Below are positions 1-52,569 of a stretch of DNA of 64,000 bases, piece by piece. The notes below the pieces were generated by a model. The model did not search any database, was not told the origin of the DNA, and saw only the letters and a program-made list of their open reading frames with translations. The stretch is taken from the NCBI RefSeq assembly GCF_032854445.1, contig NC_088302.1, forward strand, positions 14,629,338 to 14,693,337, in the 5' to 3' direction. The DNA comes from Liolophura sinensis. Its lineage: Eukaryota; Mollusca; Polyplacophora; Chitonida; Chitonidae. The position numbers and the translations under genes are program-made. Position 1 is the stretch's first letter, and each line of letters opens with the position of its first letter.

Positions 1-860
1 GTCACTCGCTAACCGAACACACAAGTAGATTGTGGAAAAGTTTGAGGGTATATAGTGCGGGACAACGCTATTATTAGCTGGAGCTATACATATAGGACTA
101 GTACTGAGAGAGGCAGAGAGGTTTCGTCCTGACCGTCTTACATGTATAGAGATCATCTTGAAGGTATCTTTCACACTCCAAGAGGAGACGGCCACAACTT
201 AGATTTTTTCTTTACAAACATTGTCCTTTTAATTGGGCCTAAATGTATCAAATGTCTTAAGAATTAAGTCAAAATATGTTGCATTAGGAAGTTTAAAATC
301 TGTACACTGATTTTTTAATACAAACAATGTACCAACCACAATTAGAGCACGAGTCTGACTTTTAAAGCACTTGCAATTTATGAGTTAAGTCTTAAGTTCT
401 CTGATAAATACGAACACTGGTCTCTATCAAAAGCAAACACTACAGGGTTTTGCCCTCTTTAACAGCACATACGCCGCTCTCTACCTTTCGCTTTACATCA
501 CTGCCACCAGTGGACACGCTTGACCTTTGGAGACTGTGAGACGCACGTAGACTTATCATCACTTGTTTCCTCCCACGGAACTATTTAATCAGCCTTCATC
601 AATATATTGTTTTAGGTTTTGGTTAGAATCATGTTGTACATACTACAGATAAAGAGAGTCCATGTTTATAAATTATTATTAGAGACAAAGGATGTGACGG
701 ATTGTTTGTGTTTTCTGACATCACTTTCTGCCTTATCACCGTGACCCCAGTAATCTAGACGTTGTTTAAGATTTCTGTACAAAATTTACTATTGGTGGCA
801 ATGATGTAAAGCGAAAGGTAGAGAGCGACGCATGCGCTATAAGGAGTATGGTTTTGACCG
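1..860 (+). repeat. Tail of a composite repeat unit (block S)
   Basis: The first 60 bases, including CTAACCGAACACACAAGTAG, recur at 9292-9330. Positions 180-330 match 10840-11010, sharing AAGAGGAGAC, TTAGATTTTTTCTT and AAAATCTGTACACTGA. A weaker match lies at 6220-6360. This is the upstream end of the roughly 4-kb unit that repeats across the left half of the window. I see no gene in it. Confidence 0.6.
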
Positions 861-863
861 CGT

Positions 864-1500
864 TTGTCTGAGAAGCCAATAGTAAGCATCATAAAGAAGA
901 TGAATGGCTTTCTTTGGCATCAAAATGACTTTCGTGCGGAGCTCGACACGGGGTGTTCATCAAAAGAAACCTTCCTGCGAGGGAAAGGCAGACAAGCGGG
1001 GAAACCGTCATCTTGTCGGGACGTGGGCAATAAAGGACCGAAGAAATATGGTTACATGTCGAGAACATGAAATATAATATAATATCTATTAGATTAACTG
1101 ATAGGAAATAGGAATTCGTCTGTAGGATCCAGCGATATCAGGCTGCTTACCAAGCCAAAAATTGTCTCATTCGGCCATCAAGACCATTTCGCAATCAACC
1201 TGTCCTAGCTATTTCGCCAGAAATCTGGCGTGATCGCTAAATGAGCATCTCTAAATGCAGAAGTCTGTGGACTTGCATGTATAAACCCATTACACAACGC
1301 CCACACACTTTTAGGGATCATCCGTAATCGCTTTGAGTTCATTCACTAATGCACCACATAAACTGATAATCTTATCACAACATTTTATTTCTCTCTTCAA
1401 AATCAATATACTTGCGTAACGGTTTAGTATGTAGTCTATATCGCTGGTCCAGCGAATTAAGACTTTCTGTCGGTTATCCACTGGCCTTAGACCAATGAGT
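864..1500 (+). repeat. Composite repeat, block A copy 1
   Basis: Block A is marked by GGAGCTCGACACG followed by TTCATCAAAAGAAACCTTCCT, a GTCATCTTGTCGGGACGTGG-like stretch and ATTAGATTAACTGATAGGA. Copies recur at 4.86, 6.45, 11.06 and 17.7 kb in this orientation, and at 38.8, 40.2, 43.9 and 51.2 kb in reverse. A short open frame here is shared with other copies only because the DNA is repeated. Frames differ between copies and carry stops, so I do not call a gene. Confidence 0.7.
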
Positions 1501-3480
1501 TTCCAGGTCCGATCAGGCTGATTCGGCTGTCGCCTGAAGTCAGGAGGATTGTCAAGTACCTGATCACGTTCTGTTGTTTCAGCTACGGTTTTAAATCAGA
1601 ATGTTTATTGGGAGCCCTTTTTTGGTCAGCCCACATACCCGACCGCTTTTATATAAGTGACAGACTCTTCAGCACGCTGTGGTAAACATCGACCCGATCC
1701 AATAAATACATAAACAAAGGTGTAGTCAAATTCTCCTGTTTTTCATATTTTTTTATTCAATATGTATATTTTGTATATGTTTCAAAATGATCTTTTTTAG
1801 TTCAGGTGGTGTTTAGGACCTTTGTGACTTACCCTATATTGTTGTTTTGTATTCAGATCACTGTCACAGAAGACTGTTTATGTAGGAGTTACGTGGACTT
1901 CTATGCCTGAAAACTCAATGTGAAACATTCACGTTTGTCCTGGGAAATGCTTGAATAAATCATCAGAGGACTGGAGGATTTGGTGACATTTATCTACATA
2001 TCCAGTTATGTTTCTGTATATTACCTTTCTAATATTACCGGATTTGGATTCAACTTCATTACCTAACCATGTTGCTGGCAGAGAACGAAATAAGACCCTC
2101 TTCTTTCTTCAGAAACAAGAAACGAGTCTTAGTGACGAAACGCAATTTAAAATATTTAAGCTCTCTTAGAGACGATCATAGCACAAATGCGATTATCTGT
2201 CTAATGAGCTCATCGTCCACGTCTGGATGGGCCGAGCTGTCACGGAAAAATTCACAAGGCGTACGAAAGAAGTTCGTTTACGGGTCTGTTTGTTTGGATT
2301 GATTACTGGAAATGATTTTCTGCACGATATCTTGAGTACACGACAAGGTGAAAACGCCATGATAAAATATACTTACCGTGTTTCTGAATAAGATGGACTG
2401 CATGTCACCAGGGAGACACCGTAAATATTAGTCCTGTGGCCGGTTTCAAGGAGCACACTTAACTACATATGTAAGTAAGCCCTTAACTACCATGGCGACG
2501 TATATTGTAGAGATATAAATTATCCTAAGTTTGCTTTATAAAACTGACCCAGGTAACAGATCGAATGTATTTATTTGTTTACTTATTTGATTGGTGTTTT
2601 ACGCCGTACTCAAGAATATTTCACTTATACGATGACGGCCAGCATTATGGTGGGCGGAAACCGAGCAGTAGATCAAATGTAAATGTCCACACCATCCATA
2701 TGTTAGGACTACTATCAAGCCTTATTTTATAACCAAAATGCCATATGTGCTAACAGTGGTCTTGTTTAATGGTAGCATAAACACTGATAGGGACTTAACA
2801 GAAGGACCAAACAAACAGTATAATAGTGACCGCCTCAAAGAATGGCAGGCTGTAATGTAGCTTTGCAAAAATTTATGTTTAAAATTCCACCACGTGAAAA
2901 AGACTTTAAATCCATTTCAAACCCAATTACCCGTTATTTCTGATATCAGTGGGACAACAGCGCACGGAAAATGAAAGATGGAGACTTTCAATTTGCCTTT
3001 TGTGCCTCATTCCACGTTAGTGGCATGAACTTTGACGTATCAACACCGTTTATAGTTTTATTCCGCTTTTTCCCCTTTTTTCGATAAGGCTTGCGGTACA
3101 AGAGAGGGCTTACAAAATGCGTGATGCATTGACACACTGTCAGCTGATCACGTTTAACCCTTTCTCCTTACGTTAATATTTTGAGCTTTTACGCAAAATT
3201 TCCGAGTATAGGAATTCGGATTAAAAAAAAATGAAAGGAAGGATATTCAGATTTAAACACGACGGAAAAGTCACAGATCCGATTACTCTGCAGATAATGC
3301 TCGTTCCAAACTTTTAGCCGAATGTAACACTCTTATATAATGATAGTCTTCAATCAGGAGTTGACCTAAGAGTTGTTTGAAGGCGCGTGGTTTACGTGTT
3401 TGGTCATAAAGCGTGTAAGTAGTGGATGATGCAGATTTATGTACCGCGGACGTATCGACGCGTCAGACTCTAATCCCGAG
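1500..3480 (+). repeat. Composite repeat, block BC copy 1
   Basis: This block carries the anchors GACGATCATAGCACAAATGC (2173), AGATCAAATGTAAATGTCCA (2671), GGCAGGCTGTAATGTAG (2843) and CACAGATCCGATTACTCTGC (3272). The same order is seen at 7.2-8.2, 11.8-13.5 and 32.3-33.5 kb. At about 1640-1712 the unit contains an old SINE-like tail (CATCGACCCGATCCAATAAA) that is also present in the 11.8-kb and 32.3-kb copies, so that fossil predates the duplications. No gene seen. Confidence 0.65.
2563..2668 (-). mobile_element. tRNA-headed SINE, 3' fragment
   Basis: This is the 3' half of the recurring SINE in reverse orientation: a TATTTATTTG tail, then TTGGTGTTTTACGCCGTACT, then CAGCATTATGGTGGG. The tRNA-like head is missing. 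It interrupts block BC copy 1. Confidence 0.8.
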
Positions 3481-4850
3481 AGGCTTTCATCCTTGGGTTA
3501 GCTTTTAAGTTATTATGAAATGTTTCTTCGTTAACGGTAATTAACCAACGAAACCAAAGTCGGTGATAAGTACGATAATATTCGTCATTGATAAATGTAA
3601 ATATTTAAATTACAACGATGTATACCGATCGCTGTAAGATACATGTCGTGTTACTTCTAAGTGCGTCTTACTTTTGTCGTACATGAGGTCGGCAGTTGTA
3701 TGTTTCTCTACTTGTATCTCTGCTCACCCCACATAATAACTGACGAGTGGACCACAAAATCTACAGGCCTGGCTGGTAATATGCATAGACGACTGACTTC
3801 CACAAAGAATATTTTGTAAATTGGCAAGACTGACAAGAATCCCAGATCTTAATCGACTTTCTATCTGAGAGACGTTTTCAACATGACATACAGATAACGA
3901 AGTAATTTCGTCGTATAGTTTCCATCCAGTGTTGTTTATGCTCTTTAAGGATTGAAACATGGAATATTGTGCAGATTGGCGCATTTGACAAGAATCCGAA
4001 AAAAACATATGACTGTTTATGTGGGGGCGTTTTTGTTCATTCAGTTTTGTGTTGATGACGCTGAACTGAGAAACGTTACAATGGCGTGCAGCAGTGCATC
4101 ATAGGGATAACAGTTACTGCAAAGCACAAACAGATGTTCTGGTCTTGAAAAAAATGACTTCTTCAGTTAAAAAATTGAATAACTTGCTATTTCCTTTGCA
4201 AATATTTCTTTGAACAGCAGCGATTAATATTTCATCTTCCCCCAGTGGTAAAATTCTCTCACGAGATTCTTTCTGTCAGTTTCAGTACCACATAGAGAGT
4301 GGAACGCCACGGAAATATGACTTGATTCATTTCCCTTATTCTGACAAAAATTTTGAGGATGGCAAAATGTGGTCAGAACACTAAACAAGACGCATTTTGA
4401 ATTCTGGTTGTTTCTTGAAAATCGTCGAATGAGAGGAAATTTCACAGAAAATGATTCAGCGATGTTGTTATGATTCTGTTGTGCATTACTGGATGAAATT
4501 ATGTTTATGACAGAGATTTAGAGTTAACACAATTTAATAGATACCATTCATTAGCCGTTTATATTTTTGGCCTCAGCCAAGAAGCCAGTGGTGAAGTTTT
4601 CAGGTCAGACAGTGCACCGCAGTGCCATCACTACCGTGTACATTCGTCGCATTCTCAACGAAAGCAGTGGAGCCAACTGTTTTTTACGATGTTCTTTGAA
4701 ATCTAAGACTTTATAAACATTATAAGCTTCTGAGTTTATATCCTGAGATCATTTCGATAATCCATAATCCACAGTCCAAACTCAGGACTATCGCAACATG
4801 GATTCATCAACGAGGTGCTAATTTAAAAAAAAACGGTAGTTTTGGTAACT
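3480..4850 (+). repeat. Composite repeat, block EFG copy 1
   Basis: Anchors CGTACATGAGGT (3679), TTTTGTAAATTGGCAAGA (3811) and GAAGTTTTCAGGTCAG (4594) recur at 8.2-9.4 kb (partly) and 16.1-17.7 kb. A reversed copy lies at 41.63-41.93 kb. The string ATTCGTCGCATTCTCAACGA at 4643 is the empty-site version of the locus where a Mutator-like element is inserted at 9386. The open frames here are not conserved between copies. Confidence 0.65.
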
Positions 4851-4854
4851 GGTT

Positions 4855-5590
4855 CTAATCACAGAAACAGACGCTAAGGGTTTTGTACCGTTTCTCGGAG
4901 AAGCAAATAAAAGACTTCACCTCGAAGATGACCGTCTTTCTCTGCCATCGAATGACTTTTGTACAATGTCTGAAACGGAATTCATCAAAAGAAACCTTCC
5001 CTGGCTGAGAGAGGCAGATGATCATGTCGGAACGTGGGCAATAAATGGCCGACAGAAATAGAACCACGTGTCAAGAACACGAAATCATACAGTATGTTAT
5101 TGATTAGATGAACTCATAGGAGGCATTCGTCTTCTGGTGCAAGCAATATCAGACTGCTTTCCAAACTGACAATTGTCTTCTTGGGCCATCTCGACCATTC
5201 AATTTAAACCTATCCCCAAAATCAGAAGTGATTGCTAAATATTTGCAAATAAGTTTTCACGCTCTTTTATTTAATTTTGGCACCATTGTGATAATTTCTT
5301 CTCCTTTGAGTCTATATACACTGTACATTTCTGGCATAATTCAGATCAAATCATTTGTACCCTAACTGCATTCCTACTTCTAGGATTCGCGGGCAAGAAC
5401 AGTTATCATAATGTTTTGGTTCCATTATCCGTAGCGTTTTTGTGTGTGTGTCGCGTACAGCAGCGCACCGAGGGGACAAAGGTTACTGCAAAGAACAACC
5501 TGATGCACTTGTCTGGCAAAAAAATTTGTTTGTAGAGTTTTCTTTAAACAGTGCCAGTGAATATTTGATCTTTAAGTCTTCCTGCAGGAA
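4855..5590 (+). repeat. Block A copy 2 with partial EFG block
   Basis: Block A (TTCATCAAAAGAAACCTTCC at 4982, ATCATGTCGGAACGTGGGCA at 5021) is truncated after about 5.23 kb. An EFG fragment with AGCAGCGCACCGAGG and GGTTACTGCAAAGAACA follows at 5458-5510. This unit is therefore internally deleted relative to its neighbours. A 523-bp MITE sits immediately downstream. Confidence 0.55.
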
Positions 5591-5619
5591 ACACCCCGGG
5601 GGTCCGAAATGATTATCTA

Positions 5620-6142
5620 CACTAAAAAAAAAAACAAATGTTTAACATTTAAACATCTCTCTGCAACAGATAATAAACGTGCTTAATGTTTAATTGTAAC
5701 ATGTTTAATACTTAAACACTTAAACGTGTTTATCCAACAATATGATAATAACACCCATTTATAATGTTGATCATTTACATTGAAAACTTTAAATCACTCC
5801 GTTTAAGCAATAAACTCACTCAATTTACTACATAAATTATTCCATTTATACTATAAATTATGAAACATACGCGTGTATTTGAAAAATAAACACACCTTAA
5901 ACATGTTAAAAGTAAGCATTCATTATGGTATGTGCACGTGTTACCGTGCAAAATAGTTTATGTGTTTCCTAAAATGTAAAAAAACGGATCAAATTATAGC
6001 TTTTTGAAACTTTGGAATCATTTTAATGCTCTAAATAGTATAGGTACAAGTCCGATATTTACTGAATGGCATTAATTTGTTAAGCACGTTTATTATCTGT
6101 TGCAGAGATATGTTTAAATGATAAACATTTGTTTTCTCAGTG
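5620..6142. mobile_element. MITE with about 65-bp terminal inverted repeats
   Basis: Positions 5620-5686 and 6080-6142 are near-perfect inverted repeats. Both contain ACAAATGTTTA, CTCTGCAACAGATAATAAA and CGTGCTTAA. The outer ends are CACT and AGTG, flanked by TA on both sides, which fits a TA target duplication as used by Tc1/mariner-type transposases. The 390-bp interior is AT-rich and non-coding. Family assignment is inference, because no transposase is present. Confidence 0.8.
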
Positions 6143-6450
6143 TACATTATTCTGCCAGGCTTTTATGAAAACAATGTTCGACGAGATCCATCACAAAAGT
6201 TATATTTATTTTCAAAAACACTACCCTTGTATACCCTGTGAGAATAAACATCAAACCTTAACATCTAAGTTAGAAATTCAAACACCGACACATTTAAAAT
6301 AAAGTCAGGAAGTTTAAAATTTCATAGACCTGCTGATTTGTTACCTGTACTGAAAAAGAAAGCAATAATAACAATTTGAGTTCTCTCCTTTTCTGAGCTT
6401 GGCTTTAAAAGCATTTGTAATTTAAAACTTCAGAAAGGAGATCACATTTT
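6143..6450 (+). repeat. Block S fragment
   Basis: This AT-rich stretch is weakly similar to 200-340 and 10900-11020, sharing AAATTCAAACAC and AGTTTAAAATTTC-like runs. No coding or RNA feature seen. Confidence 0.4.
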
Positions 6451-6915
6451 TGACATCAACATGACTTTTCTTCGGAACTGGACACAGCGTATTCATCAAA
6501 AGAGATATCTTGGTGGGTCGTGATCATTAAAGGGCTGGCAGAAACAGAACCACATGTAGAGAACATGAAATCGCACAGTATAATATCCATTAGATTAACT
6601 GTTAGGAGGTATGAATACGTCTGCAGGGTCCAGCAATATCAGACTGCTTTCCAAACAGAAACTTCTCTCGTCGTTCCGTGTAGACTATTCAAGTAAACCT
6701 ACCCTCGTCATTTCTTCAGAAAAAAAAGGCGCGTTTGCCAAACGTGAATCTCTAACTGTAAAAGCGGACGGTTGTGGACTTCGTTCAAAAATCCATAACA
6801 CCACACCCACACATTTTGATTTCATTCACCAATGCTCCATATAAACGAACAATCTTATCACAGCATTCTTCTCTCTCTTCAAAATCAATATAGTTACGTA
6901 AATATTCAGTATGTA
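6450..6915 (+). repeat. Composite repeat, block A copy 3
   Basis: It carries AACTGGACACAGCGTATTCA and ATTAGATTAACTGTTAGGAG, then the block-A end TTCATTCACCAATGCTCC and CTTCAAAATCAATATAG. The order matches the 11.06-kb and 17.8-kb copies. Confidence 0.65.
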
Positions 6916-8210
6916 GCTTTTGCAACCATTTTCATTTTTCCAGGGAAAGGCTCGGGTATAATATCAGATATACATACTTCAGTTACATTTTTATGCTTGG
7001 TATAAATACATATTTTCTCATTACTTTTCTGAAGTGATAATAAAATTGCGAAAAAGTCTTCATGAACCAGCAAATAGCTTTGGGGCAGAAAAATGCAAGA
7101 ATTCCCTTGTGGCCACTCCAAATCTTCTCCTGTAACAAAAAAAAAGTTCATAAGAGAGTTGAAGCTCAAATCCGATCATCTGTATAAGTACCTCATCTCC
7201 CACGTCTGGAGGAGCCGAGTTTTCGCGGAAAAAACTAACCAGGTTTTGGTGTTTTACTTCCTCGGGTCATACTGTTGTTGTGAACATTACGTCCTTTATA
7301 TTACGACCATGTCATAAACTGTAATAAGTCTGTCCTAATGGTGAAGCATCTATGGTGCTGCTTCACACACCAGAGGCATCAGAGAATGTTGTGAATGATG
7401 TGTTACACCTGGTCATATAACAGTTCACGTGTAAATGTCCACGCTATTCCTCACCTGAGGGGTTCTTTCAGGCAATATTTATTAAGCAAAATACAACATA
7501 TACGAGGATCTGTGGGTTTGTTTAATGAAAGCAAATAAATTCATAGGAGATGTAAAAAAAATGAACAAAAAGTACATGATTAATCCCATCAAAGAATCGC
7601 AGGATGTGAAGTAGTTTTGCAAAAATTAATGTTTAAAATTCAAAAAAGAGTTAAAATCCATTTCGTAGTCAATTACCCGTGGTGTCTCACAGCAGTTTCC
7701 TCGAAATGAAAGATGGTGACCTTTTATCTGACGTTGTGTCTCATTCCACATGTGAATGGCATGGGTTTGACGCATCAACACTGTTCATATTTTAAAGCCG
7801 ATTTTTTTCCTGTTTTCGATAAGGCACGTAGTGAATGAGATGGATTATAAATTGCGTGATGTATAGACACGCTGGGATCTGATAGTTGGCACCGTTTATC
7901 TTTAGGTTAACGTTTGGAGACCTTATTCCATTTTTCTGCATAAAGAAACTGAATTAAAACAAAAATGGAATACGACAGAGAAAGGCACAGATCTGATTAC
8001 TCTGCAAATAACAGTCGTACAAAGATTTTAGGTGAAAGTCGGCATGAAGTATCCTTATACAATGTTGATTTTTAAGAACTGATTAAAACTTGTTTTTCTT
8101 TAAAGGCTCATGGATTATCTGTTTTTCATAAGGCATGTAAGTAGTTCGTAAGATAAGCTTACGTACTGCTTATGACTCTGATCCTGAGGAATTTTCATCA
8201 TTGGGTTAAA
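6915..8210 (+). repeat. Composite repeat, block BC copy 2
   Basis: It carries ATCCGATCATCTGTATAAG with CCCACGTCTGGAGGAGCCGA (7171-7218), GTGTAAATGTCCACGCTATT (7430), a GCAGGATGTGAAGTAG-like motif (7600) and CACAGATCTGATTACTCTGC (7987). The continuation at 8045-8210 shows the uninterrupted version of the site where the Penelope-like element sits in the next unit. Confidence 0.6.
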
Positions 8211-9385
8211 CCCCTAAAACAGTATACAACGTTTCTTTTCTATTAGGAGGATTATACCAACAAATGGAAAACATGAGCGTCGGGTGTTAAGTTTTTTATT
8301 AAAATATTTGTAAACTGGCAAAATAGACAATAATAAATAAATCTTTATCAACTATCTATTTGAAAGATTTTTCAACAAAACATACAACTAGGAAAGCAAT
8401 TTCGTCAAATATTTTTCATCCAGTTTTGTGTTTGAGTGAGAACGGATATGTAGAGGAATGTTTTGTAAATTGGCAAGATTGACAAGAAGATCACATTCTT
8501 AACAACTTTCTGTTTGAGAGATTTCGCAATAAAACACATCGCAATAAAACACAGTTGATACAGCTGTTTCGGTGTGGGGGGAGTGGGGGGTCATACAGTT
8601 TTGCCGAGTAATGCTACACCTGGGTGTAGAAGGGCATCGCAAGAGTAAAAGCTGCAGGGAAGCACAAACACGTGTGCTTCTTCCGTAAATTAATTAACTA
8701 CGACTCGCTGTTTCCTTAGCAAAAATTTATTTGAACACCAGCGACGAGTATTTCATCTTCAGCACATGAATGGAGGTGACTTGAATTCCGGCTGTCGATA
8801 AATCAAGGCAAATCAATGTCAAAGAAGACGATTAAGCGTTGTTGTTGTTCTTCTCGTTGTTGTATATAACTACTTGATAAACTGTGCTAGCATGAGCTTT
8901 AACAACAGAACATTTCGGCAAAATTTCACGATGAAAGTTCACAACTTAAAGAAAGTTCACAAAGCTCCGGTGTTGTTGTTTCGTGTAACGCACGTGGTCG
9001 CGTTGTCAAACACCGTTTCAGGCCATTCCCAGTCGTGTCGCCCTGTCTGGTTTAGCGGAGTTCGAGTATTCCTAAACAGATCCCATTCTCGTCGCTAATT
9101 TGTTTGGTATAACTACTTCATAACTGTGATAGCATGAGCTATAACAACGTGTATCACTGCACGTATATACAGTGGTGTGCCGGCCGTGATTTAACCCAGA
9201 ACATCACACTCGTGTGCAGCATGATCTATATGCAGGTTACACGTGTATATAAATGAGGTATAGAGTTAACACATTTCAAAAGATACCAGTCGCTAACCGA
9301 ACACACAAGTAGTCTGTGGAGAGGTTAAAGGTCATGTAGTAGCATACAAGGCCATCATTACGCTCCACATTCGTCGCATTCTCAA
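8210..9385 (+). repeat. Block EFG copy 2, split by a transposon
   Basis: It carries TTTTGTAAATTGGCAAGA at 8463 and the 9290-9385 end of the block. Inside it, 8863-8905 and 9103-9147 are similar direct repeats (ATAACTACTT and TAGCATGAGCT), so about 240 bp was locally duplicated. The block stops at GCATTCTCAA (9376-9385) and resumes at 10696 after the inserted element. Confidence 0.55.
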
Positions 9386-10695
9386 ACTTGGTAAAGTTGG
9401 CACAAGATTCCAACACAACATTCAACACCATATTCGCCAGAATGCAGCTCGTGCAGCGGCGAATATGGAGCTGAATGTTGTGTTGCAATATTGTGTCAAC
9501 TTTACTTTGTAAAAAGAACATTCAACACAACTTCTGCACAAATGTGACATGTATAATAGCGTGCTACATAGGTAGTTCACAGTTCGCCCAAAGAGACACA
9601 TATTTCATTCTTACTAAAAGCATAAGATATATTTTTATATTTCGAAGGAGGGCCTCTGCAGCTTGCAATGTATGCTTTGTGACCCTTTTAGCGATCCTTT
9701 AAAGCCTGTTTTAGACTAAGCAAATGGCATTTTTGAGAAGGCATTTTTGACAAAGAAGCAGGTAGCAGACGGTCTAAGATAGCATTAAATAAGAAGAATG
9801 AACATCATACTGTCGTTTAATCGCCTTTCCAGGCCGTCTGCGACTTGCATTGTATGTTTTCTGACCTTATAAGTAGCCCTATGAAGGCTGTTTTGAAATA
9901 AGCTAATGGCATTTTTGAGAAGGCATTTTGACACCATACCAGGTTAGTGACGGTTTGAGATTGTGTTGAATGTTACGAATGAACAACATACTGTCGTTTA
10001 ATCGCCTTTCCAGGGCGTCTGCGACTTGCACTAATCAAGTATCTTTCTCGTAAAATGAATTTATGGAGGACATTTTTGACACCTAGGCATGTTAGAGACG
10101 GTCTAAGATGGTATTGGATATAAAGAGTAAACAAGATACTGTCCTTTATTACCCATTACTGGACGCCTGCGACTTGCATTGCATCTGTTGTGACTCCTTC
10201 TTTCCTGATCACAACTATGCACCTTTACATACATGCACAGTTTCAGCTATGTTGCTAAATGCCCTTTGACACTGAGGCAAGTTGCTGACTTGATGAATAT
10301 TCACGAAAGGACCTTTAGGACTTAAACTGTACGTCAGCTGAATGTAGAAATGTACCCCTAGGGCCGGTTATAGTTTAAAGAACACCCATTTTAAGAAGGT
10401 ATTTTGAACACTAAACTCGTTCGAAATGTGAAAATAGATCTTATGTTTCCAACATTATAGGCTTGCAGTAAGAAAATGTGTGTCTTTTTTGATGAACTTT
10501 TAATTACCTAAATAGCACGCCATTATACATGTAACTTTCATGTACCATATGTACCTATAACCATCTGCATGTTGTTTTACAAAGTAAAGTTGACACAATA
10601 TTGCAACACAAAGTTCAGCTCCATATTCGCCGCTGCACGAGCTGCATTCTGGCGAATATGTTGTGCTGGAATCTTGTGTCAACTTTACCGAGCCT
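9386..10695. mobile_element. Mutator-like or foldback DNA element, non-autonomous
   Basis: A 1310-bp insertion is flanked by the perfect 10-bp direct repeat GCATTCTCAA (9376-9385 and 10696-10705). Long inverted termini lie at about 9386-9515 and 10575-10695. Each terminus is itself a hairpin: the arms contain GGTAAAGTTG and ACTTTAC, with TATTCGCC and GGCGAATA flanking a loop containing GAATGCAGCTCGTGCAGC. A 9-11-bp target duplication with long termini is characteristic of Mutator-like elements, and the nested hairpins resemble foldback elements. The interior carries 180-bp tandem repeats and no transposase. The empty site is visible in sister repeat copies at 4650 and 17475. Confidence 0.85.
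9640..10200 (+). repeat. Internal tandem repeats of about 180 bp in the Mutator-like element
   Basis: The phrase CTGCGACTTGCATTGTATG, or close variants, begins at about 9655, 9838, 10019 and 10167. Spacings are about 182, 181 and 149 bp. Between them AATGGCATTTTTGAGAAGGC (9723, 9905) and CATACTGTCGTTTAATCGCC (9808, 9989) also recur in phase. This gives three full copies and one decayed copy. Confidence 0.8.
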
Positions 10696-10705
10696 GCATT
10701 CTCAA

Positions 10706-11054
10706 CAAAAGCAGTGGGGTCGGTCCTAATTTATGATCATCTATCAAACCAAGCAATAACTATATATATATAGAACTGAGACAGACAGAGAGATTCCATT
10801 CCGCTCATCTTACTTGTATGGAGATCCGCATTAAGGTATCTTTTTATTTCAAGAGGAGACACCCACAACATAGATTTTTTCTTCAAAACGCTGCCCTTTT
10901 AAATGAAACTGTGCACATTTGTATCAAACGTCTTAAGACTTAAGAGAAAAATTCAAACACCCTTACAATTAAAATATTTTGCAATAGAAGTTAAAATCTG
11001 TACACTGATTCTTTACCGCTAATAATGTACCGAACAAAATTTAACTTTACTTTA
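10706..11054 (+). repeat. Composite repeat, block S copy after the insertion
   Basis: This is a direct match to 90-340 at the window start (AGAGAGATTCC, CAAGAGGAGACACCCACAAC, AATCTGTACACTGATTCTTT). It continues the EFG block interrupted by the Mutator-like element. No gene seen. Confidence 0.65.
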
Positions 11055-11600
11055 GTGTCTTTCTTTGGCATGAAAATGACTTTTGTACGGAGCTCGACAC
11101 GCAGTATTCATCAAAAGAAACCTTCCTCGCAGAGAGAAGCAGGGAAAAGCGGGAAAGCCGTCATCTTGTCGGGACGTGGGCAATAAAGGGCTGGCAGAAA
11201 TAGAACCACGTGTCGAGAACACGAAATCACACAGTATAATATCGATTAGATTAACTGATAGGAGGTATGAATAGGCCTGCAGGGTCCAGCAATATCAGAC
11301 TGCTTTCCAAACAACAAATTGTCTCGCTCGGCCATCTAGACCATTTCGCTTTAAACTTAACCTATCCTTCTATCCTTGTTATTTCGCCAGACATCATGCG
11401 TGATTGCTAAATGTGAATCTCTAACGCTAAAGGTGGGGGGTCGTGGACTTGCATGTATAAACATCGCCCAGACACTTTTAGGGATCATCCGTAATCGGTT
11501 TGAGTTTATTCACCAATGATCCACATAAACGGACAATCTTATCATAGCATTTTAGTTCTCTTCAAAATCAATATACTTGCGTAACGGTTTAGTATGTAGT
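11055..11600 (+). repeat. Composite repeat, block A copy 4
   Basis: One of the best-preserved A copies. It has CGGAGCTCGACACGCAGTAT, GTCATCTTGTCGGGACGTGG, ATTAGATTAACTGATAGGAG and, at the end, GCTGGTCCAGCGAATTAAG, which is shared with 1446. The short open frame across 11083-11274 is chance coding inside the repeat. Confidence 0.7.
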
Positions 11601-12691
11601 CTATATCGCTGGTCCAGCGAATTAAGGGTTTCTGTCGGTTATCCACTGGCCTAAGACCAATGAGTTTCCAGGTCCGATCAGGCTGATTCGGCTGTTGCTT
11701 GAAATCAGGAGGATTGTCAAGTACCTGATCACGTTCTGTTGTTTCAGCTATAATTTAAATCAACACGTTTATCAGGCGCTCCGTTTTGATCAACCCATAA
11801 ACATAACCGTCGTCATAGAAATGATAGATTCTCAAGTGCGCGATGTTAAACACCAATCCGATCCACTAAATACATTAACAAAGGCGTAGTCAAATGTAGT
11901 CAGATAAAACAAGATCTTCTTGTTTTCTCGGAAGCAGAAAGCTTTTTTTTCTTGACAAAACGGAATTCAAAATATTTAAGCTCTTTGGTAGACGATCAAA
12001 GCACACATGCAATTATTTGTCTCATGATCTCATCATCCAGTTCTGGATGATCCGAGCATGGCAATCGCACAAGGCGTACTACAGAAGTTGTATTACGGGT
12101 TTGTTTGTTTGCCGTTATTACTGAAAAGGATTTCCTGTACAATAACCTGAACACATGGAAAAAAGTCATGATAAAATATACAGACCATGTGTCTGAATAA
12201 GATGGACGTCATGTCATCAGAGAATATCAAAATGTTAGTCCTGTAACAGATCAAATGTAAATGTCCACACCACCCGTATGTTAAGACTACTACATGTATG
12301 AAGCTTTATTTAATAACCAAAATACAACACGTACTAGGATCTGTGGACTTAATGGAAGCATATAAATTGATAGGAGATTTAGCAGAAAACAGTACAAACG
12401 CAATAATATTGATCGCTTCAAAGTATGGCAGGCTGTGATTTAGTTTTGCAAAACTTAATGTTTTAAATTCCACCAGGTGAAAAGAGTTAAAACGTATTTC
12501 ATAGCCAATTACCTGTTATTTCTGACATCAGTGGGACAAGAGCTTTTTATTTTATATTTTTCACAACAGGCGTTTGTTGGTTTGCCATCCACAATGACCT
12601 GAAATGGAATTTCTACACGATAACCTGAGTACATGAAAGCCCAGTTTCACAAATGATCGTATTTTGTACGTCATTATCACCATATCATTGT

Positions 12692-12743
<52 letters not shown>

Positions 12744-13500
12744 GGCCACCGTCGGTATATTTTATCATTTTACAAAATGGATTTCACGTCATCAAAGACT
12801 ATTGTGAAGGTTGTGTTACTACATCTGGTCATATAGCAGATCAAGTGTAAATGTCCACACCATTCCTCGCCTTAGGAGTCCTTTCATGTCTTATTTAATA
12901 ACCGAAATATAACATTTATGAGGATCTTTGGGTTTATTTAATGGAAGCATACAAATTCATAAGAGGCTTAACAGAAAAGCCGAATAAAAAGTACAACATT
13001 GATCACATCAAGGAATGGCAGGTTGTGATGTAGTTTGGCAAAAATTAATGTTTAAAATTTCACTACGCGGAAAAGAGTTAAAATCCATTTCGTAGTCAAT
13101 TACCCGTTATATCAGTGGGACAACAGCTCACGGAAAATGAAAGATGGTGATTTATTTTTGAGCCTCTTTTCACATGTTAATGGCATGGCTTTGACGCATT
13201 AACATTGACGCATGTTCATATTTTGATGTTGTTTTTTTTTACCGGTTTTAAAAAATTCACGTGGTACATGAGAAGGCTTATAAATTGCACGAGGTATTGA
13301 CACGCTGGTATCTGATCATGGGTACCCTTTGTCCTTAGGTTAAGATTTGTGCCATATTTCCGACTACAGCAATTGATTTTTTTTAAACAAGAAAAAATAA
13401 TAAGATTTAAACATGAAAGAATATGCCACAGATCCCATTACTCAAGACAGAATACCAAAATTTTTGGCCGAAAGTTGCCATGAAGCATTCTGATACAATA
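11600..13500 (+). repeat. Composite repeat, block BC copy 3, internally duplicated
   Basis: The C segment appears twice: AAATGTAAATGTCCACACCA at 12252 and GTGTAAATGTCCACACCA at 12847, 593 bp apart. Both are followed by the GGCAGG motif and AAAAGAGTTAAAA. The block ends abruptly at about 13500 where the Penelope-like element begins. It resumes at about 16085 with GGAATGTTTGAAGCCCCATG. Confidence 0.6.
12639..12746. mobile_element. Small hairpin element enclosing a TG microsatellite
   Basis: Perfect 12-bp inverted ends GCCCAGTTTCAC (12639-12650) and GTGAAACTGGGC (12735-12746) enclose an AT-rich stretch and about 43 bp of (TG)n (12694-12736). The flanks on both sides are block BC sequence, so this is an insertion or a microsatellite born inside a small palindromic element. 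No target duplication is obvious. Confidence 0.6.
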
Positions 13501-14877
13501 CTTGCAATAGTCGGCCTTAATTCCTACGTTAACTTAAGTTGTATTGCGTCCAATTGTATTTACTTGGTAACATGCAAGAAGTGTGGTCAACAGTATGTTG
13601 GGAAGACCACCCAGAAACTACACTTATGGGTGAACGGGCACCGTAAGTCCGTGCGCAAGAAACAATTGCTAATAGGCAAGCATTTCTCTGCCTCCGACCA
13701 TGACTGGGACCATTTCAGCATTCAAATAATAGAATCGGTTTATCCATCAACAAATGAGACTGATGTCGAATTTGAACGTAAAATCCGTGACCGTGAGCTT
13801 TTCTGGATGCTAGAGATTGGTCCAGTCTTCCCATATGGGTTGAATGATAACGTTATGGGAATCGGCAATGTAACACCTAGCCAACCATATGACTCCATCG
13901 TAACAAATTTATTCAAATACCATAAACGTAGACCTCGCAGTCATGGTAGGAGGAAGTTCAACAGAAACATGATTCACAAACACATTACGGTTAGCTATTT
14001 AGTAGGATTGTTGTATGACAACAATAGCATGCATGCTCTACGCACAGTATTATATGCACTGCCATTGAACTTGCTAAAACAGGTCGTTCAAGACGTATCC
14101 AATAACATACACAATTTTAATGTTCCACCTCACCTTGTACGTCTGTGTCAAGACATATCGTATTTTCGATTGTATCGCCCTGTAACTATAATTCAAACTC
14201 AACATGATCGACTGTTTCTAAAGATAAAGTATTTAGACAGTGGCCTTGATTTAATTAACCTACCACGCATCTTTAATGAACCTGATGTTCGTAGTGCTGT
14301 GCCTAATTATTTTAATATCCAAGAGCCACCTTGCATATCCTATGAGTATACAAAGCCTATCGCTTCCAAAATTTTCAATTATTCCCTGGCCATCAAGGAG
14401 TTCCATTTGGCGACGTATACTTCTGGGGGCTATAACCGTGATTGTGAATCCTCAGTTTTTACCACCGACAAATGTAAACATGTCCTGACTGGTGACCTTA
14501 ATATTATTAAGAATCATGATCTAAGGAATCTCTTTGTGAGGGGTCCTAAGTATAGAGAAAAGAGTAATGTCAACATTCGATCAAACAAAAAAAATATCAT
14601 CTCGGCACTTGAGGAGTATGTTAAAAAATGGTCAAAACGGGAAAAAGTGGATTCTTCAGTACTTAACGATTGGCTTGAGATTGTCAAAAAGAAAGTTAGT
14701 TCAACTATACACCGTCTAGACATTGATGCTCTACCTACAGTTAAGCAGGTTCTGAAGGATCCCACTGTGCAAGAAACACTCGCTGACCTTCATAGTAAAT
14801 TCATAGTAAGAGCTATGTGCATCTACAACGACATCCACGTATTCTGCTACTACATGTACTCTGAAGGAACTATTTAA
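13423..14877 (+). pseudogene. GIY-YIG nuclease plus RT N-terminal region of Penelope-like element
   Basis: This 484-codon open frame starts in host repeat. About the first 26 codons (13423-13500) come from block BC, so the ATG is accidental. Residues 45-60 form the GIY-YIG core (CIY then YVG) with a CxxC at 51-54, as in Penelope-type endonucleases. In the following helix the position usually held by catalytic Arg reads Trp (residue 69, codon TGG), and the downstream Asn-Gly-His is kept. A LFWML segment and FPYGLN (residues 127-141) follow. Near residues 356-372 there is a conserved HVLTGDLNIIKNHDLR stretch, then GPKYRE and a basic helical region that precedes the RT in this family. After about codon 460 the similarity breaks by frameshift. 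The normal role would be target nicking and reverse transcription. This copy is dead. Confidence 0.75.
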
Positions 14878-14898
14878 CAAATACAAAACCTTTCTTAA

Positions 14899-15404
14899 AG
14901 AAGGCGCATAAATATACTTACCCGTCACACAGAAATACCACAACTTTACTGGATTCCTAAAATGCATAAATCCCCATACAAGGCTCGATTTATTACAGGT
15001 TCAAAAAGCTGTACCACCAAACTCTTGTCAACCCTACTTACGAGAGCGTTACAAGAAGTAAAGTCCGCCTTCATAGTCCTGATGGCACATCTTATTTGGA
15101 TCTATATCTGTACAAAGACGACCAAGGTCTCCTTTCACGCCGCCTTTACGACAAAAGGGATAATTTCAATTTTGATATTGTAAATTATCCTTATTTAGAT
15201 AGCAATATACCAAAGGGTCCTGCATATGGCGTATACATATCTCGCCTTGTAGCATTTGTCAGATCTTGCATTAATTGTGATTACTTTAATCTGCGTCACA
15301 AGTTGCTAGTTCAAAAATTAGTTTGTCAAGGATACTCCGTCAAACGCCTTCATTCTAAGTTTCTCAAATTTTACAATGAGTATAACACTCTCGTTGGCAG
15401 GTAG
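14899..15404 (+). pseudogene. Reverse transcriptase remnant of Penelope-like element
   Basis: Frame one (about 14917-15070) encodes LYWIPKMHKSPYKARFI and CTTKLLSTLL, which match the conserved N-terminal RT motif of this group. A second frame (about 15081-15404) encodes SYLDLYLYKD, LYDKRDNFNF and NIPKGPAYGVYISRL, the C-terminal RT region. Between them the palm, including the catalytic Asp motif, is absent. I estimate at least 200 residues are lost from knowledge of the family, not from measurement. The frame changes at the junction. The stop at 15402 follows LVGR, and a further in-frame stop lies shortly after. Confidence 0.75.
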
Positions 15405-15424
15405 AATCTCTGGCGATCTGCATT

Positions 15425-15575
15425 GTGATCAACCACATAGACGGCGCTGTTATCCCTATGTACACATCTACCACGTACATGGTATTTAACAACATAGATG
15501 GCTCTGGTTGCCCAGTGTAACCGTCTATCTTGTATGTCATGTATAACATCATAGATGGCGCCTCTTGTAGCATGA
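15425..15575 (+). repeat. Three imperfect 59-bp repeats after the RT
   Basis: ACCACATAGACGGCGCTG (15431), AACAACATAGATGGCTCTGG (15489) and CATCATAGATGGCGCCTC (15546) are spaced 58-59 bp apart. They lie directly downstream of the RT remnant and upstream of the 3' untranslated region, so they probably belong to the element. Confidence 0.65.
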
Positions 15576-16085
15576 GATCTTTACATATTAACGTAAAAGA
15601 CGTGATCGTCCATTACTTTTGAATCACAATCTGATCGGTTAGGGTCTGTAACGCTCGTCATTTTCAAACTGTATCTAATACCGCTTAACCTGGGGCTGGG
15701 GGCCGTAAAAGTAGCCATGCTAACTACATCAGCATGATGCCTTTATGAACAGTTGCAATTAAAGCGCGACCGATATACTTGTTTAATTGTTATTTGACAT
15801 GGAACTATTCACGGACTACGAATTTGAACTTTGATATGGAATTCATGCCTGGAATATTCATTGTCTGCCCGGCATCAATGAAAACTGATGACCGCTTCTC
15901 TCTTGTGTGTTACCGGCTTTATTTCTTATTTGTATAATTTCTTACATACTTTTATCTTTGGGAGTTAGTGTTAGTTAGTGTTTTGGGAATGGATCTTGCG
16001 ATTATCGACTTGGAACGCCCTTTACGGACTACGAATGGTATAGGAATGTCGGACTTGACGCTTATATTTATGTTAGTTGTTAATC
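15576..16085 (+). other. 3' untranslated region of the Penelope-like element
   Basis: It is AT-rich and non-coding. The part from about 15890 (GACCGCTTCTCTCTTG, then TTTTGGGAATGGATCTTGCG and a GACTTGGAACG motif) is repeated without the upstream coding part at 20.2, 36.8 and 50.1 kb. Those copies look like 5'-truncated insertions of the same family. Confidence 0.6.
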
Positions 16086-17690
16086 TTCAGGAATGTTTGA
16101 AGCCCCATGGATTACCTTTTTTGGCATGTAAGTAGTTCACGAGACAGGCTTATTTACCACATGATGTATCGACACGTCAAACTCTGATCTTGAGAACATT
16201 TCATCCTTGCATTAGCCATTGGTGAGTGTCGCAAAAAACTCGTTAAATATATATTCGGTTCACCAGATACTGTGATTTTTGTTTAATCTTTCTTCCTTCC
16301 TATCTTATAAGACAGTATACAAAGTCTCTTTGCTATTAGCCCTTATGAACCAACACATCCAGAAAATGAACATCGGTGATAAGTATGATAAAAGACGTCA
16401 CGCATTAAGAGGAATGCCTTAATTACAAATGGATACTGATCATTGTAAGTTACATGTCAGGTTACATCGGAGTGGATCTTACATTTATCGTACATGAGGT
16501 AAGCGGTTGTTGCTGTTTTTACTATTCCTTTTTTGTTTTCCTGATCTTCTCACTTCATAATAGACAAAAGAGTCATGAAATGGAAAGCGCTGGCTGGTAA
16601 CACGCATAGACGGCAGATTTATTCAAAGCATTATCAACTTTCTATTTGAGAGATTTTGTCAACAAAACATACGGCTAACAAAGCAATTTCGTCGTATATC
16701 TTCCATCTAGTTTCGTGTTGTTGATGTTGTTCTTAACGATTTATGCATGGAATATTTTGTAAATTAGCCTATTGACAAAAATCGCAGATTCTTTACACCC
16801 CTTTTCTCTGAAATACAAACACATCGCTGATATAGCTATTTCGGTGGGTTATTTTTTTTATTAAGTTTGGTGTTGTTGTTGATGCTGAACTAAGAAACGT
16901 TACAATTGCGTCCTACATCGCGCCGTGGGAATAAAAGCTGCTGCAAAGCACCAACAGATCGCAAAAAATGTCATGTTCAGTAAATACGTTAACCAGCTCA
17001 CTGTTTCCTTTGTAAATATTTCTTTGAACAGCAGCAACAGCATTCCTTGAATATTTCATCTTTAATACTTTTCCCGCTGGTAAAATTCTCTGACGGGAAT
17101 CTTTCTGTCAGTTTCAGTACCACATAATAAGTGAAACGCCCCAGGAATCTAACATGATTAATCTGCCTTATGCTGAAAAATTTTTAGGATGGCAAATTTT
17201 GGTTAAAAGACAAAATAAGACGCGCTTTGAATTGTGGTTGTCTATTGAGAATCATCGAATGAGTGGAAACTTCAAAGAAAATGATTCAGCAATGTTGCTA
17301 GGACTCTCCTGTGCATCACTGGAGGAAATTATGTTTTTGAAAGAGGTATAAAGTTAAAACAAATTAATAGAGACTACTCATTAAGCGTTCCCATGTTTGA
17401 CTTTAGACAAGAAGTTATTGGTGAAGTTTTCAGGTCAGGCAGTGCGGCACAATGTCGTCACTATGCTGCATATTCGTCGCACATTCAACGAAAGCAGTGG
17501 GACCAATCGTATTTTACGATGGTATTTGAAACCAGACAATTTCTAAGACTGTATAAACATTGTAGTACACAGAGTTTATATCCTGATATCCATATCAATT
17601 CGATGATTCCCAAATCCAAAGTTCAACTGGAGACTATCACAACATGGATTCATCACAGAGGTGACAATTTCTTTGGAAACGAACCACAGT
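16085..17690 (+). repeat. Composite repeat, end of BC plus block EFG copy 3
   Basis: It resumes block BC/D (CATGGATTACC and GGCATGTAAGTAGTTCACGA) after the Penelope insertion. The EFG anchors follow: CGTACATGAGGTAAGCGG (16492), TTTTGTAAATTAGCC (16752) and GAAGTTTTCAGGTCAGGCAG (17425), then ATTCGTCGCACATTCAACGA (17471). Two modest open frames (17154-17351, 17393-17692) lie in DNA shared with 4.2-4.8 kb, where they are interrupted, so I do not call genes. Confidence 0.65.
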
Positions 17691-18300
17691 AGTTTTAGGA
17701 CCTGGCTCCAGTTACGGAAATGGACTCTAAGGGTTTTGTGCCCGTATTCTGAGAAGCAAATAACAGCCTTCAGGAAAAAGATGAAAGTTTTTCTCTAGCA
17801 TCAAGATGACTTTTGTACGGAGCTCGACACACGGTATTCATCAAAACAAAAAACCTTCCTGGCAGAGAGACGCGCACAGGCAGAGGAAACCGTCATCTTG
17901 GACGTGGGCAATAAAAGTTCGATAAAAACAGAACTATATGTCGAGAACATGAGATCATATAGTATATTATTGATTAGATTAACTGATAAGAAGCAAGAAT
18001 TCGTCTGTCCAGCAATCAGGCTGCTTTCCAAATAGAAAATTGTCTTGTTGGGCCATCCAGACCATTCGATTTAAACCTATCCTTGTTACTTTGCCCGAAA
18101 TTAAGCGTGATCGCTAAATGTGAATCTCTAACACTAAAGGCGGAGGTCGTGAACTTCCATATATAAACCCATTACACTACACCCACACAGTTTTATCTAT
18201 CATCCGTAATCCATGTAATTTCATTCACCAATGCTCCACATAAACTAATAGCCATATATATTAAGGCATTTTCTTTCTCCAGAATCAATATTAGGGTTGT
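17690..18300 (+). repeat. Composite repeat, block A copy 5
   Basis: It carries CGGAGCTCGACACACGGTAT, TTAACTGATAAGAAG and TTCATTCACCAATGCTCCAC. This is the last block A copy in plus orientation. All later copies are reversed. Confidence 0.7.
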
Positions 18301-20224: not shown

Positions 20225-20395
20225 GTACTTTTCGTACTTAATGTACTTTCTTAGTTCTTGGTGGTTTGTGTTATACGTCGTTTTGGGAATTGGCCTTACG
20301 ATCATTGACTTGGAACGTCCTTATTGGTTGACGGCTGGTATACAAATGTCTGTTTCGACGCGTAGATTGAGTATAAACTCGAATAGGAAATATAA
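20225..20395 (+). mobile_element. Solo 3' end of Penelope-like family
   Basis: TTTTGGGAATTGGCCTTACG, TTGACTTGGAACGTCC and TTGACGGCTGGTATACAAAT match the end of the Penelope 3' region (15965-16060). An even closer match lies at 50150-50265. There is no upstream coding part, as expected for 5'-truncated reverse transcription products. Confidence 0.6.
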
Positions 20396-20590: not shown

Positions 20591-23478
20591 GTGTTTCGTA
20601 CAGTCACTGGGCACTGATACCAGACACAAAACCCCGCCCATTTACAGCCCACTGATACCAGACACGACGTCACACCGAGTCACAGGGCAATGATACCAGA
20701 CAGGACGTTCCACCCAGTTATAGCCAACTGACACCAGACTTGACGTCCCACCCAGTCACAGCCGACTGATGCCAGTCTTGACATCACACCCAGTCACAGC
20801 TCACTGATTGCAGACCTGACGTCACGCCGAGACACAGGGCACTGATACCAGACACGACGTCACACCGAGACACAGGGCACTGATAGCCTACTGATACCAG
20901 ACCCGGCGTTACACCGAGACACAGGTCACTGATACCCGAGACGACGTCCCACCCAGTCACAGACCACTGATACCAGAGCCGACGTCATACCGAGTCACAG
21001 GGCACTGACACCAGACACGGTTGCTGATCTAGATATAGTGCATTGACTTTTGGCAATACATCCCATTCAGTCACAGGGAACTGTCACAAGACACGACGTT
21101 CCACCCAGTCGCGGGGCTCTGACACCAGACAGAACTCCCCATCCAGTCACAGTGCACTGAAATAAGGCACAACAAGTTACGCAGTCACAGGACATTGAGA
21201 CCAGACAAAAAAAAACCTCCCAAGCACAGTGCACTGACACCAGACACGACGTCCTACTCACACACAATACACTGTCGTCAGACACAATGCACTGACACCC
21301 GAAAAGATGTCCCACCCAGTCACAGTATATTGACAACTGACACGACATCCAAACCAGACACAGTGCACGACCTCCAATCCAGCCACAATGCACTGACACC
21401 AGACACAACGCCCCTTCCAGTCAAAGCATACTGACACCAGACACGAAGTCACACTCATCGCAGTATACTGAAAGACAAGAGGTACGATTCTGTCACGGTA
21501 ATCTGACACCAGACACGACGTATTTTATTTATTTATTTATTTGATTGGTGTTTTACGCCATACTCAAGAATATTTCACTTATACGACTTCGACCAGCATT
21601 ATGGTGGGTGGAAACCAAGGGAAAACCCAGGTTGCTGGCAGACCTTCCCACGTACGGCCGGAGAGGAAGCCAGCATGAGCTGGACTTGAACTCACAGCGA
21701 CCGCATTGGTGAGAGACTTCTGGGTCATTAGGCTGCGCTAGCGCGCTAACCAACTAAACCACGGAGCCCCAGACATACGACCCAGTCATAGTTTTCTGAC
21801 AACAGACACCACATACGATCTAGTCATAGTTTTCTGACAGCAGACACCACATACGACCCAGTCATAGTTTTCTGACAACAGACACCACATACGATCCAGT
21901 CATAGTTTTCTGACGACAGACACGATGTACGATCCAGTCATAGTTTTTTGACAACAGACACCACATACGATCCAGTCATAGTTTTCTGACAACAGAAACC
22001 ACATACGATCCAGTCACAGTATTCTGACAACAGACACCACATACGATCCAGTCATAGTTTTCTGACAACAGACACCACATACGATCCAGTCATAGTTTTC
22101 TGATGACAGACACCACATACGATCCAGTCATAGTTTTCTGACGACAGACACCACATACGATCCAGTCATAGTTTTCTGACAACAGACACCACATACGATC
22201 CAGTCATAGTATTCCGATATCTGACACGATGTACGATCCAGTCATAGTTTTCTGACAGCAGACACCACATACGATCCAGTCATAGTTTTCTGACAACAGA
22301 CACCACATACGATCCAGTCATAGTTTTCTGACGACAGACACCACATACGATCCAGTCATAGTTTTCTGACAGCAGACATGATGTACGATCCGGTCATAGT
22401 TTTCTGACGACAGACACCACATACGATCCAGTCATAGTTTTCTGACAACAGACACCACATACGATCCAGTCATAGTTTTCTGACAACAGACACCACGTAC
22501 GATCCAGTCATAGTCTTCTGACGACAGACACCACATACGATCCAGTCATAGTTTTCTGACAACAGACACTACATACGACCCAGTCATAGTTTTCTGACGA
22601 CAGACACTCCATACGATCCAGTCATATTTTTCTAACGACAGACACCACATACGATCCAGTCATAGTTTTCTGACAACAGACACCACATACGATCCAGTCA
22701 CAGTATTCTGACACCAGGCACCACATACGACCCAGTCAAGTTTTCTGACAGCAGACACCACATACGATCCAGTCATACTTTTCTGACGACAGACACCACA
22801 TACGATCCAGTCATAGTTTTCTGACGACACACACCACATACGATCCAGTCATAGTTTTCTGACATCTGACATGATGTACGATCCAGTCATAGTTTTCTGA
22901 CAGCAGACACCACATACGATCCAGTCATAGTTTTCTGACAACAGACACCACATACGATCCAGTCACAGTATTCTAACACCAGACACCACATACGATCCAG
23001 TCACAGTATTCTGACAACAGACACCACATACGATCCAGTCAGAGTATTCTGACAACAGACACCACATACGACCCAGTCATAGTTTTCTGACAACAGACAC
23101 CACATACGATCCAGTCATACTTTTCTGACGACAGACACCACATACGATCCAGTCATAGTTTTCTGACGACACACACCACATGCGATCCAGTCATAGTTTT
23201 CTGACAACAGACACCACATACGATCCAGTCACAGTATTCTGACACCAGACACCACATACGATCCAGTCACAGTATTCTGACAACAGACACCACATACGAT
23301 CCAGTCACAGTATTCTGACACCAGACCCCACATACGATCCAGTCACAGTATTCTGACAGCAGACACCACATACGATCCAGTCATAGTTTTCTGACAACAG
23401 ACACCACATACGATCCAGTCACAGTATTCTGACAGCAGACACCACATACGATCCAGTCACAGTATTCTGACAGCAGAT
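20590..23478 (+). repeat. 38-bp minisatellite array, about 2.6 kb plus a SINE
   Basis: The unit is about 38 bp: TACGATCCAGTCATAGTTTT followed by CTGACAACAGACACCACA. The part from 21772 to 23478 is about 45 highly similar units with variants (acgaca, acagca, acaaca; catag or cacag). The part from 20590 to 21520 is much more diverged, with units like CAGTCACAGGGCACTGATAC plus CAGACACGACGTC. Spacers are not unique and no cas genes occur, so it is not a CRISPR. Open frames in the diverged half are repeat artefacts. Confidence 0.92.
21523..21771 (-). mobile_element. tRNA-headed SINE, full length, inside the minisatellite
   Basis: On the minus strand it begins with the tRNA-like head GGGGCTCCGTGGTTTAGTTG (box A-like TGGTTTAGTTGG). 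Box B-like GAGTTCAAGTCC follows, then the central region and the tail GGCGTAAAACACCAATCAAA with a run of AAAT units. It separates the diverged and homogeneous halves of the array. Confidence 0.9.
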
Positions 23479-31162: not shown

Positions 31163-31420
31163 TAGGGGCGTCCTTAGCTGTTAGCGCAGCGTAATGACCC
31201 AGGAGCCTCTCATCAATGCGGTCGCCGTGAGTTCAAGTCCAGCTCTTGCTGGGTTTTCTATCCGGCCGTAAGTGGGAAGGCCTGCCAGCAACCTGTGGAT
31301 GGTCGTGGGTTTCCCCGGGCTCTGCCTTGTTTCCTCCCACCATAATGCTGACCGCCGTCGTAAACGTGAAATACTCTTGAGTACGGCGTAAAACACCAAT
31401 CAAATATATAAATCAATTAA
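31163..31420 (+). mobile_element. tRNA-headed SINE, near full length
   Basis: The head is GGGGCGTCCTTAGCTGTTAG, with box B-like GTGAGTTCAAGTCC (31228), a central region (CACCATAATGCTGACCGCCG) and the tail TACGGCGTAAAACACCAATC. Flanking ATTTTGATAC (31153-31162) and ATTGTGATAC (31421-31430) are a 9-of-10 match and a likely target duplication. Confidence 0.88.
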
Positions 31421-31429
31421 ATTGTGATA

Positions 31430-36834: not shown

Positions 36835-36985
36835 CAAGCTATTTGGTGGTTTGTGTATAACGTGGTGCTGAAAATTAATCCTGCACTAATTGATCCGGAA
36901 CGTCTATTTTTGGTTGACGGCTGCGTGATATAGGAATGTCTGTTTTGACGCCTACATTAGTAAACAGCCTTAAGTCTTCGTATAT
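36835..36985 (+). mobile_element. Solo 3' end of Penelope-like family
   Basis: TTTGGTGGTTTGTGTATAAC, GATCCGGAACGTC, TTGGTTGACGGCTG and GGAATGTCTGTTTTGACGCC match the Penelope 3' region and the copies at 20.2 and 50.1 kb. It is more diverged than those. Confidence 0.5.
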
Positions 36986-41930: not shown

Positions 41931-42434
41931 TTCCTCAGTCCTATTGATCTATAATCACATCTTTGATCCGTTTTCGTATTTAACATCTGATACTTATGCT
42001 TTCGTTTCGTTGGTCTAGTTACCCCTAACGGCGATGACATATTATGTGATTACCAATAAAATATTTACACATTGTGTGATTACCTATAAAAATGTTAACC
42101 CGTGGATGAAAGGTTCTCAGTATCAGATGCCGACGCGTCGATACCTCAACCAATACATATACATAATTCTATCTCGTGAACTACATACATGCCTTAAGAA
42201 ACACAGGGAAACCGTGAACCTTTAAACACCTGTTACAATCATTTCTGAGGATTATCAGCCAGAACAGGGCCGTTTGTTTCAAGGATTTCCACATTGTATA
42301 AGAATGCTCCACGCCAATTTTCAGCTAAAAGTTTGGTTCGAACTTATCTCAAGAGTAATCACATCTATGTCTTTCTATGTCGGATTTAATTTTTGGATAT
42401 TCTTCCTTCCCTTTTCTTTGTCAAAAAGGTTTTT

Positions 42435-52560: not shown

Positions 52561-52569
52561 ATGCTAAAA

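Follow-up and report, generated by a model that had tools for sequence, protein, structure and literature searches.

A decayed Penelope-like element with its GIY-YIG endonuclease upstream of the reverse transcriptase, nested in a host repeat of Liolophura sinensis

The window, a 64,000-nucleotide stretch of the Liolophura sinensis genome (NC_088302.1, positions 14,629,338 to 14,693,337), contains a 2,551-bp insertion seated in a diverged host repeat. The insertion consists of pieces of a Penelope-like element (PLE) in which a GIY-YIG endonuclease (EN) precedes the reverse transcriptase (RT). Its features are given below, where L009, the enlarged locus of the copy L002, is the reference copy for the alignment.

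13517–16067 (+): whole insertion, a 5'-truncated, internally deleted copy of a permuted PLE, delimited by the 16-copy alignment, the common 3' end, and an uninterrupted sister host repeat.
13552–13785 (+): GIY-YIG EN match, residues 46–123 of the frame 13417–14877 (Pfam PF01541).
14437–14445 (+): CxC motif site in the linker, with the first Cys changed to Arg in the window copy (17-row alignment).
14488–14526 (+): TGDLNIIKNHDLR stretch of the linker (sequence, aligned with sister copies).
14802–14807 (+): junction of a ~77-nt deletion (L009 4059–4135, including the ADKAPNN motif), where the frame shifts (copy alignment and motif scan).
14808–15065 (+): RT fingers piece with WIPKMHKSPYKARF at 14950–14991 (sequence, copy alignment).
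15066–15072 (+): palm deletion junction; the missing ~611 nt (L009 4395–5005) carry motif A (DFSTLY), motif B (IPMG), and motif C (YIDD) of the RT (copy alignment, motif scan).
15073–15404 (+): RT C-terminal piece up to the stop codon, with LYDKRDNFNF (15144–15173) and PAYGVYISRL (15219–15248) (sequence, copy alignment).
15405–16067 (+): 3' UTR, 94–95% identical at 39 other scored genome places.
15958–16067 (+): conserved 3' tail, ~73% identical to sister-family tails, a candidate RT recognition element (sequence comparison).
12835–13516 (no strand): left flank, diverged host repeat; 12835–13443 matches 2667–3288 (blast).
16068–18291 (no strand): right flank, where the host repeat resumes; 16094–16216 matches 3374–3502, 16373–18082 matches 3560–5215, and 17732–18291 matches 850–1409 (blast).

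The EN match lies in a 486-aa open frame (13417–14877, plus strand), the first 33 codons of which (13417–13516) are outside the element, and the RT pieces sit in two shorter frames 3' of it. All of the plus-strand motifs listed in an earlier sequence-only reading of this DNA, namely the GIY-YIG core, TGDLNIIKNHDLR, WIPKMHKSPYKARF, LYDKRDNFNF, and PAYGVYISRL, are present, and the deletion of the RT palm that it had proposed is real, with motifs A to C missing relative to L009. These motifs did not arise by chance, because the 486-aa frame recurs at 100 or more genome places and PF01541, which scores 18.0 bits in the window copy and is there under the cut-off of 22.6, reaches 25.8 bits in a sister copy protein (P0004).

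For reconstruction of the empty site, 13330–13516 was joined to 16068–16230 and aligned with three sister host repeats, one of which (42050–42430, reverse strand) was continuous through the junction, confirming the proposed nesting in a host repeat. The ends, previously put at 13500 and 16085, were correct to within 18 nt, but were moved to 13517 and 16067 on the basis of the 17 copies and the sister host repeat. No target-site duplication was visible in comparison with 42050–42430, nor was a clear one seen in the flanks of the other copies. The host repeat occurs as diverged blocks, ~65–81% identical and in both orientations, at 850–18291 and 25.9–36 kb, and inverted at 39–44.6 kb and 51.3–52 kb. 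No conserved reading frame stood out in blast comparisons between its copies, and it was not called a gene cluster, because the matches listed were scattered over many frames and both strands.

Other elements occupy further parts of the window. A non-LTR retrotransposon at 55151–59903 (+) has endonuclease, RT (RVT_1, 113.8 bits), and RNase H frames; the frame at 55151–55948 has no Pfam match and resembles a CCHC ORF1. The remnant of an LTR-type retroelement at 47331–48853 (−) retains an integrase (Integrase_H2C2, rve) and an RT RNase H. A 38-bp minisatellite spans 21773–23477 in ~45 copies, and an interspersed repeat of ~100 bp, 79–95% identical and in both orientations, is found at 2569–2668, 21524–21619, 31329–31422, 42434–42532, 52467–52562, 62636–62699, and other positions. 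Outside the window, a 331-codon open frame directly upstream of the element copy in L002 (227–1219, plus strand) resembles, by eye, a DNA-transposon or polymerase gene. On contig C99, COI recurs every ~15.5 kb at seven places, with one more in C632, which looks like an assembly concatemer of the mitochondrial genome. Translated mitochondrial COI has no stops under codes 4, 5, and 9 but 5 stops under code 2, so that the vertebrate code is unsuitable; the sequence looks lophotrochozoan, perhaps molluscan.

When the 609-Mb genome was searched with the 486-aa frame, 88 of 1355 candidates were scored and at least 100 matching places emerged, counting that of the window copy. Sixteen further copies (L009–L024) were taken with their flanks; this set is not a random sample, because it was chosen among the better matches. 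All 16 are collinear with the window copy. The same 3' end point, marked by CTTATAT, is shared by 17 of 17 copies (16067 in the window), and with the 3' UTR as query, 38 of the 39 other scored places end at query positions 662–671 and one at 679 (40 of 2,533 candidates scored, one being the window). The 5' ends vary: three of the 17 copies begin at L009 2361, one at 2368, and the rest further in, the window copy starting at the equivalent of L009 2774. A terminal repeat of ~28 nt is present in the three copies with the unit start at 2361. L017 is a head-to-tail tandem copy, and L011 is an inverted partial copy. Tandem repeats were detected by TRF on both sides of three of the 17 copies (L016, L022, and L023), a count made without a random-site control. 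A ribozyme search in Rfam at gathering scores gave no match in the window, L009, L017, or L020, nor any in L017 up to E 1.

The order of EN before RT, which the sequence-only reading had recognized as permuted, is present in the window and in the other copies that retain the EN. One of these copies, L002, reads EN, a linker with CDC, ADKAPNN, IPKMHKS, DFSTLY, IPMG, YIDD, KRDNFNF, and AYGVY, with a complete RT, in one 894-codon frame interrupted by one TGA. A motif scan of the 16 other copies detected the EN in nine (L009, L016, and L018–L024), and it lies upstream of the RT in all nine. As for the other seven, L010–L015 begin downstream of the EN, and L017 has an EN with an altered motif.

The alignment of the copies also identified conserved residues in the EN and the linker. 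At each of the two Cys positions of the EN CxxC (98/101), 10 of the 11 rows that have a residue there carry Cys; H134 is invariant, and H140 is more than 90% conserved. These residues are candidates for a CCHH motif. The linker CxC is CDC at residues 386–388, where the first Cys is kept in 15 of 17 rows (Arg in the window, one gap) and the second in 16 (one gap). Pfam gave no RT family match in P0004 at E up to 1. RVT_1 was matched by 10 of the 15 RT members, with a best E of 2e-4, and the first member scored 18.4 bits, below the Pfam cut-off of 29.6. The spacing from RT motif A to B is 76 residues, compared with 56 in L035, one canonical PLE copy in the same genome. Two AlphaFold models were poor (mean pLDDT 34 and 32), PDB sequence searches matched nothing meaningful, and in a scan of viral contigs for relatives, 21 stretches fitted the pattern and none was confirmed.

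The window copy is dead: it is 5'-truncated, it has lost palm motifs A to C and the first Cys of the CxC, and the Arg of LHLRVNGH in the EN helix is Trp. This Arg, which we take to be catalytic from other GIY-YIG enzymes, is kept in nine of 12 aligned rows, the remainder being two Trp and one Gln. The ~77-nt and ~611-nt deletions of the window copy did not show when the 16 other copies were matched by blast; several of these copies have other indels. No intact copy was found among those examined; only the best candidates were scored, and intact copies may exist elsewhere.

The 17 copies differ from one another by a median K2P distance of 0.050 (136 pairs, range 0.031–0.067) in a star-like manner, and the window copy lies 0.042–0.066 from the others. 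Differences per 100 codons at positions 1, 2, and 3 were 4.77, 4.15, and 5.67 in the EN, 3.72, 3.95, and 4.04 in the linker, and 4.18, 3.80, and 4.34 in the RT. Because these single differences are near-even over the three codon positions, the copies give no clear sign of purifying selection. The simplest reading of the sequence comparisons is that the family would have expanded in a single burst, after which its copies would have decayed mostly neutrally. Selenocysteine was considered as an explanation of the in-frame stops. The 17 copies have 40 stop positions, many of those in L021 arising from a frame-shifted stretch; one position is common to two copies, and the codon is TAA in both. The TGA of L009 is private, with Ser at that position in 15 of 17 rows. 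There is no sign of selenocysteine, because no TGA recurs at one site.

The last ~110 nt of the element are ~73% identical in a sister family, and in two of five extended sister-family loci an RT C-terminus, 56–70% like that of the window family, lies upstream of the tail. No conserved RNA fold was apparent in the 3' tail, as the RNAalifold value on 40 tails (−2.38) was matched by 35 of 100 column shuffles.

Within the window, sister PLE families are represented by 3' tails truncated at the 5' side, with the same 3' end point as the window element, at 20229–20369 (+), 50134–50270 (+), and 36836–36958 (+). They are ~71–73% like the tail of the window element (20229–20369) or like one another. 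Tails of these kinds are found at many more places in the genome. The 20229–20369 segment was also considered as a short independent repeat, since 39 other scored places matched only query 430–577 or less, yet this edge marks where the query copy is 5'-truncated, and with longer flanks many other copies of this type extend upstream. A more distant relative is represented at 40029–40178 (−) by an RT C-terminal fragment, with 47% identity over 51 residues to the window family RT (E 2.8e-6).

The fixed 3' end, the variable 5' truncation, the short terminal repeat, the tandem copy, and the inverted partial copy fit the behavior of a target-primed element. In passages of PMC11167929, PMC3846280, and PMC9033089, PLEs are described with target-primed reverse transcription and pseudo-LTRs. 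In the most likely mechanism, the N-terminal EN would nick the DNA, the RT would bind the element RNA at its 3' tail, and priming at the nick would start reverse transcription. Such target-primed synthesis would give copies with a shared 3' end and 5' truncations of differing length, and some partial tandems.

PLEs of the canonical order, RT followed by a C-terminal GIY-YIG (as given in part of PMC11167929), were also found in this genome. Among nine further GIY-YIG loci (L027 and L033–L040), RT motifs lie upstream of the EN in L027, L035, L037, and L040; L033, L034, and L039 have the EN motif alone, L036 has none of the motifs, and L038 belongs to the same family as the window copy. The canonical family resembles the window family in its EN with CxxC (hhalign E 1.5e-5, probability 79%), and PLE-type RT motifs are present in both, whereas the order of the two domains is the opposite and the A-to-B spacing is shorter. 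The RT pieces gave a weak profile match to the canonical PLE RT (probability 4.8% and 36.6%). The RT-then-EN PLEs of this genome are another family, and the result that would have contradicted the permuted reading, best matches to families of that order, did not occur.

That the permuted PLE falls outside the Naiad and Chlamys clades is improbable: the ~300 residues between EN and RT in P0004 favor it when set against the reportedly 'short' CxC domain of Naiad, but the CxC, the invertebrate host, the pseudo-LTR-like ends, the missing hammerhead, and the longer A-to-B spacing agree with Naiads. We attach equally little likelihood to the proposal that the family represents another, separate clade of N-terminal-EN PLEs, one having a long EN–RT linker and a 3' tail that would be kept across sister families as an RT recognition tag and scattered by truncated copies as short repeats. 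Very improbable is a C-terminal-EN PLE in tandem, in which the upstream EN would be that of the preceding unit. PLEs are known to form tandems (in the part of PMC11167929 that deals with them), and L017 is one, but L002 carries EN and RT in one frame, three units have their start 5' of the EN, at L009 2361, and after the RT the frame ends into the 3' UTR without an EN. That the EN piece and the RT pieces came from two neighboring insertions that mimic a permuted element, as their different frames and the intervening deletions might suggest in the window alone, is already refuted and has almost no probability left, both coding pieces being collinear with 16 copies at other genome places, one of them reading from EN to RT in a single frame with one TGA, in agreement with the single insertion originally proposed. 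The domain order, the ends, the truncation pattern, the one tandem, and the decay documented here very probably belong to a dead copy, truncated at its 5' end, of a multi-copy PLE of the Naiad type, with the permuted order GIY-YIG EN, CxC linker, RT.

The name Naiad occurs in the relevant portion of PMC10941475, and the name Chlamys in portions of PMC10941475 and PMC12477816; the pertinent sections of PMC10294476, PMC13282606, and PMC12910113 do not treat permuted PLEs beyond citing Craig et al. 2021. The EN-before-RT arrangement is already described, and the window element is a further example of that type. Apart from the unit ends and the tail candidate, it is a decayed copy whose element type was known before. 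What it adds is an invertebrate genome with permuted and canonical PLEs side by side, in which the unit ends of the permuted family are clear, and a 3' tail common to sister families as a concrete candidate for the recognition target of these RTs.

Naiad and Chlamys PLEs, with an N-terminal EN before the RT, are said to have been described by Craig and colleagues in 2021 (Mol Biol Evol 38:5005), whose abstract reportedly gives Naiad a 'short' CxC domain. The window family has in common with Naiads the order EN, CxC linker, RT. N-terminal-EN PLEs have a linker CxC motif and an RT insertion-in-fingers domain. Naiads have an EN CCHH motif, no known hammerhead ribozyme, a microsatellite insertion bias, high copy number, pseudo-LTRs, and invertebrate hosts. 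The host, the pseudo-LTRs, the copy number, and the missing hammerhead agree with the window family. Some Naiads of clams and spiders are selenoproteins with in-frame TGA at conserved sites, a feature of which the window family has no sign. Chlamys elements likewise have the N-terminal EN before the RT, but their ENs are not known to have the CCHH motif and their hosts are algae and protists, whereas the window family has a conserved CxxC, two His, and an animal host. By these features, the window family is probably best filed as a Naiad-type PLE.
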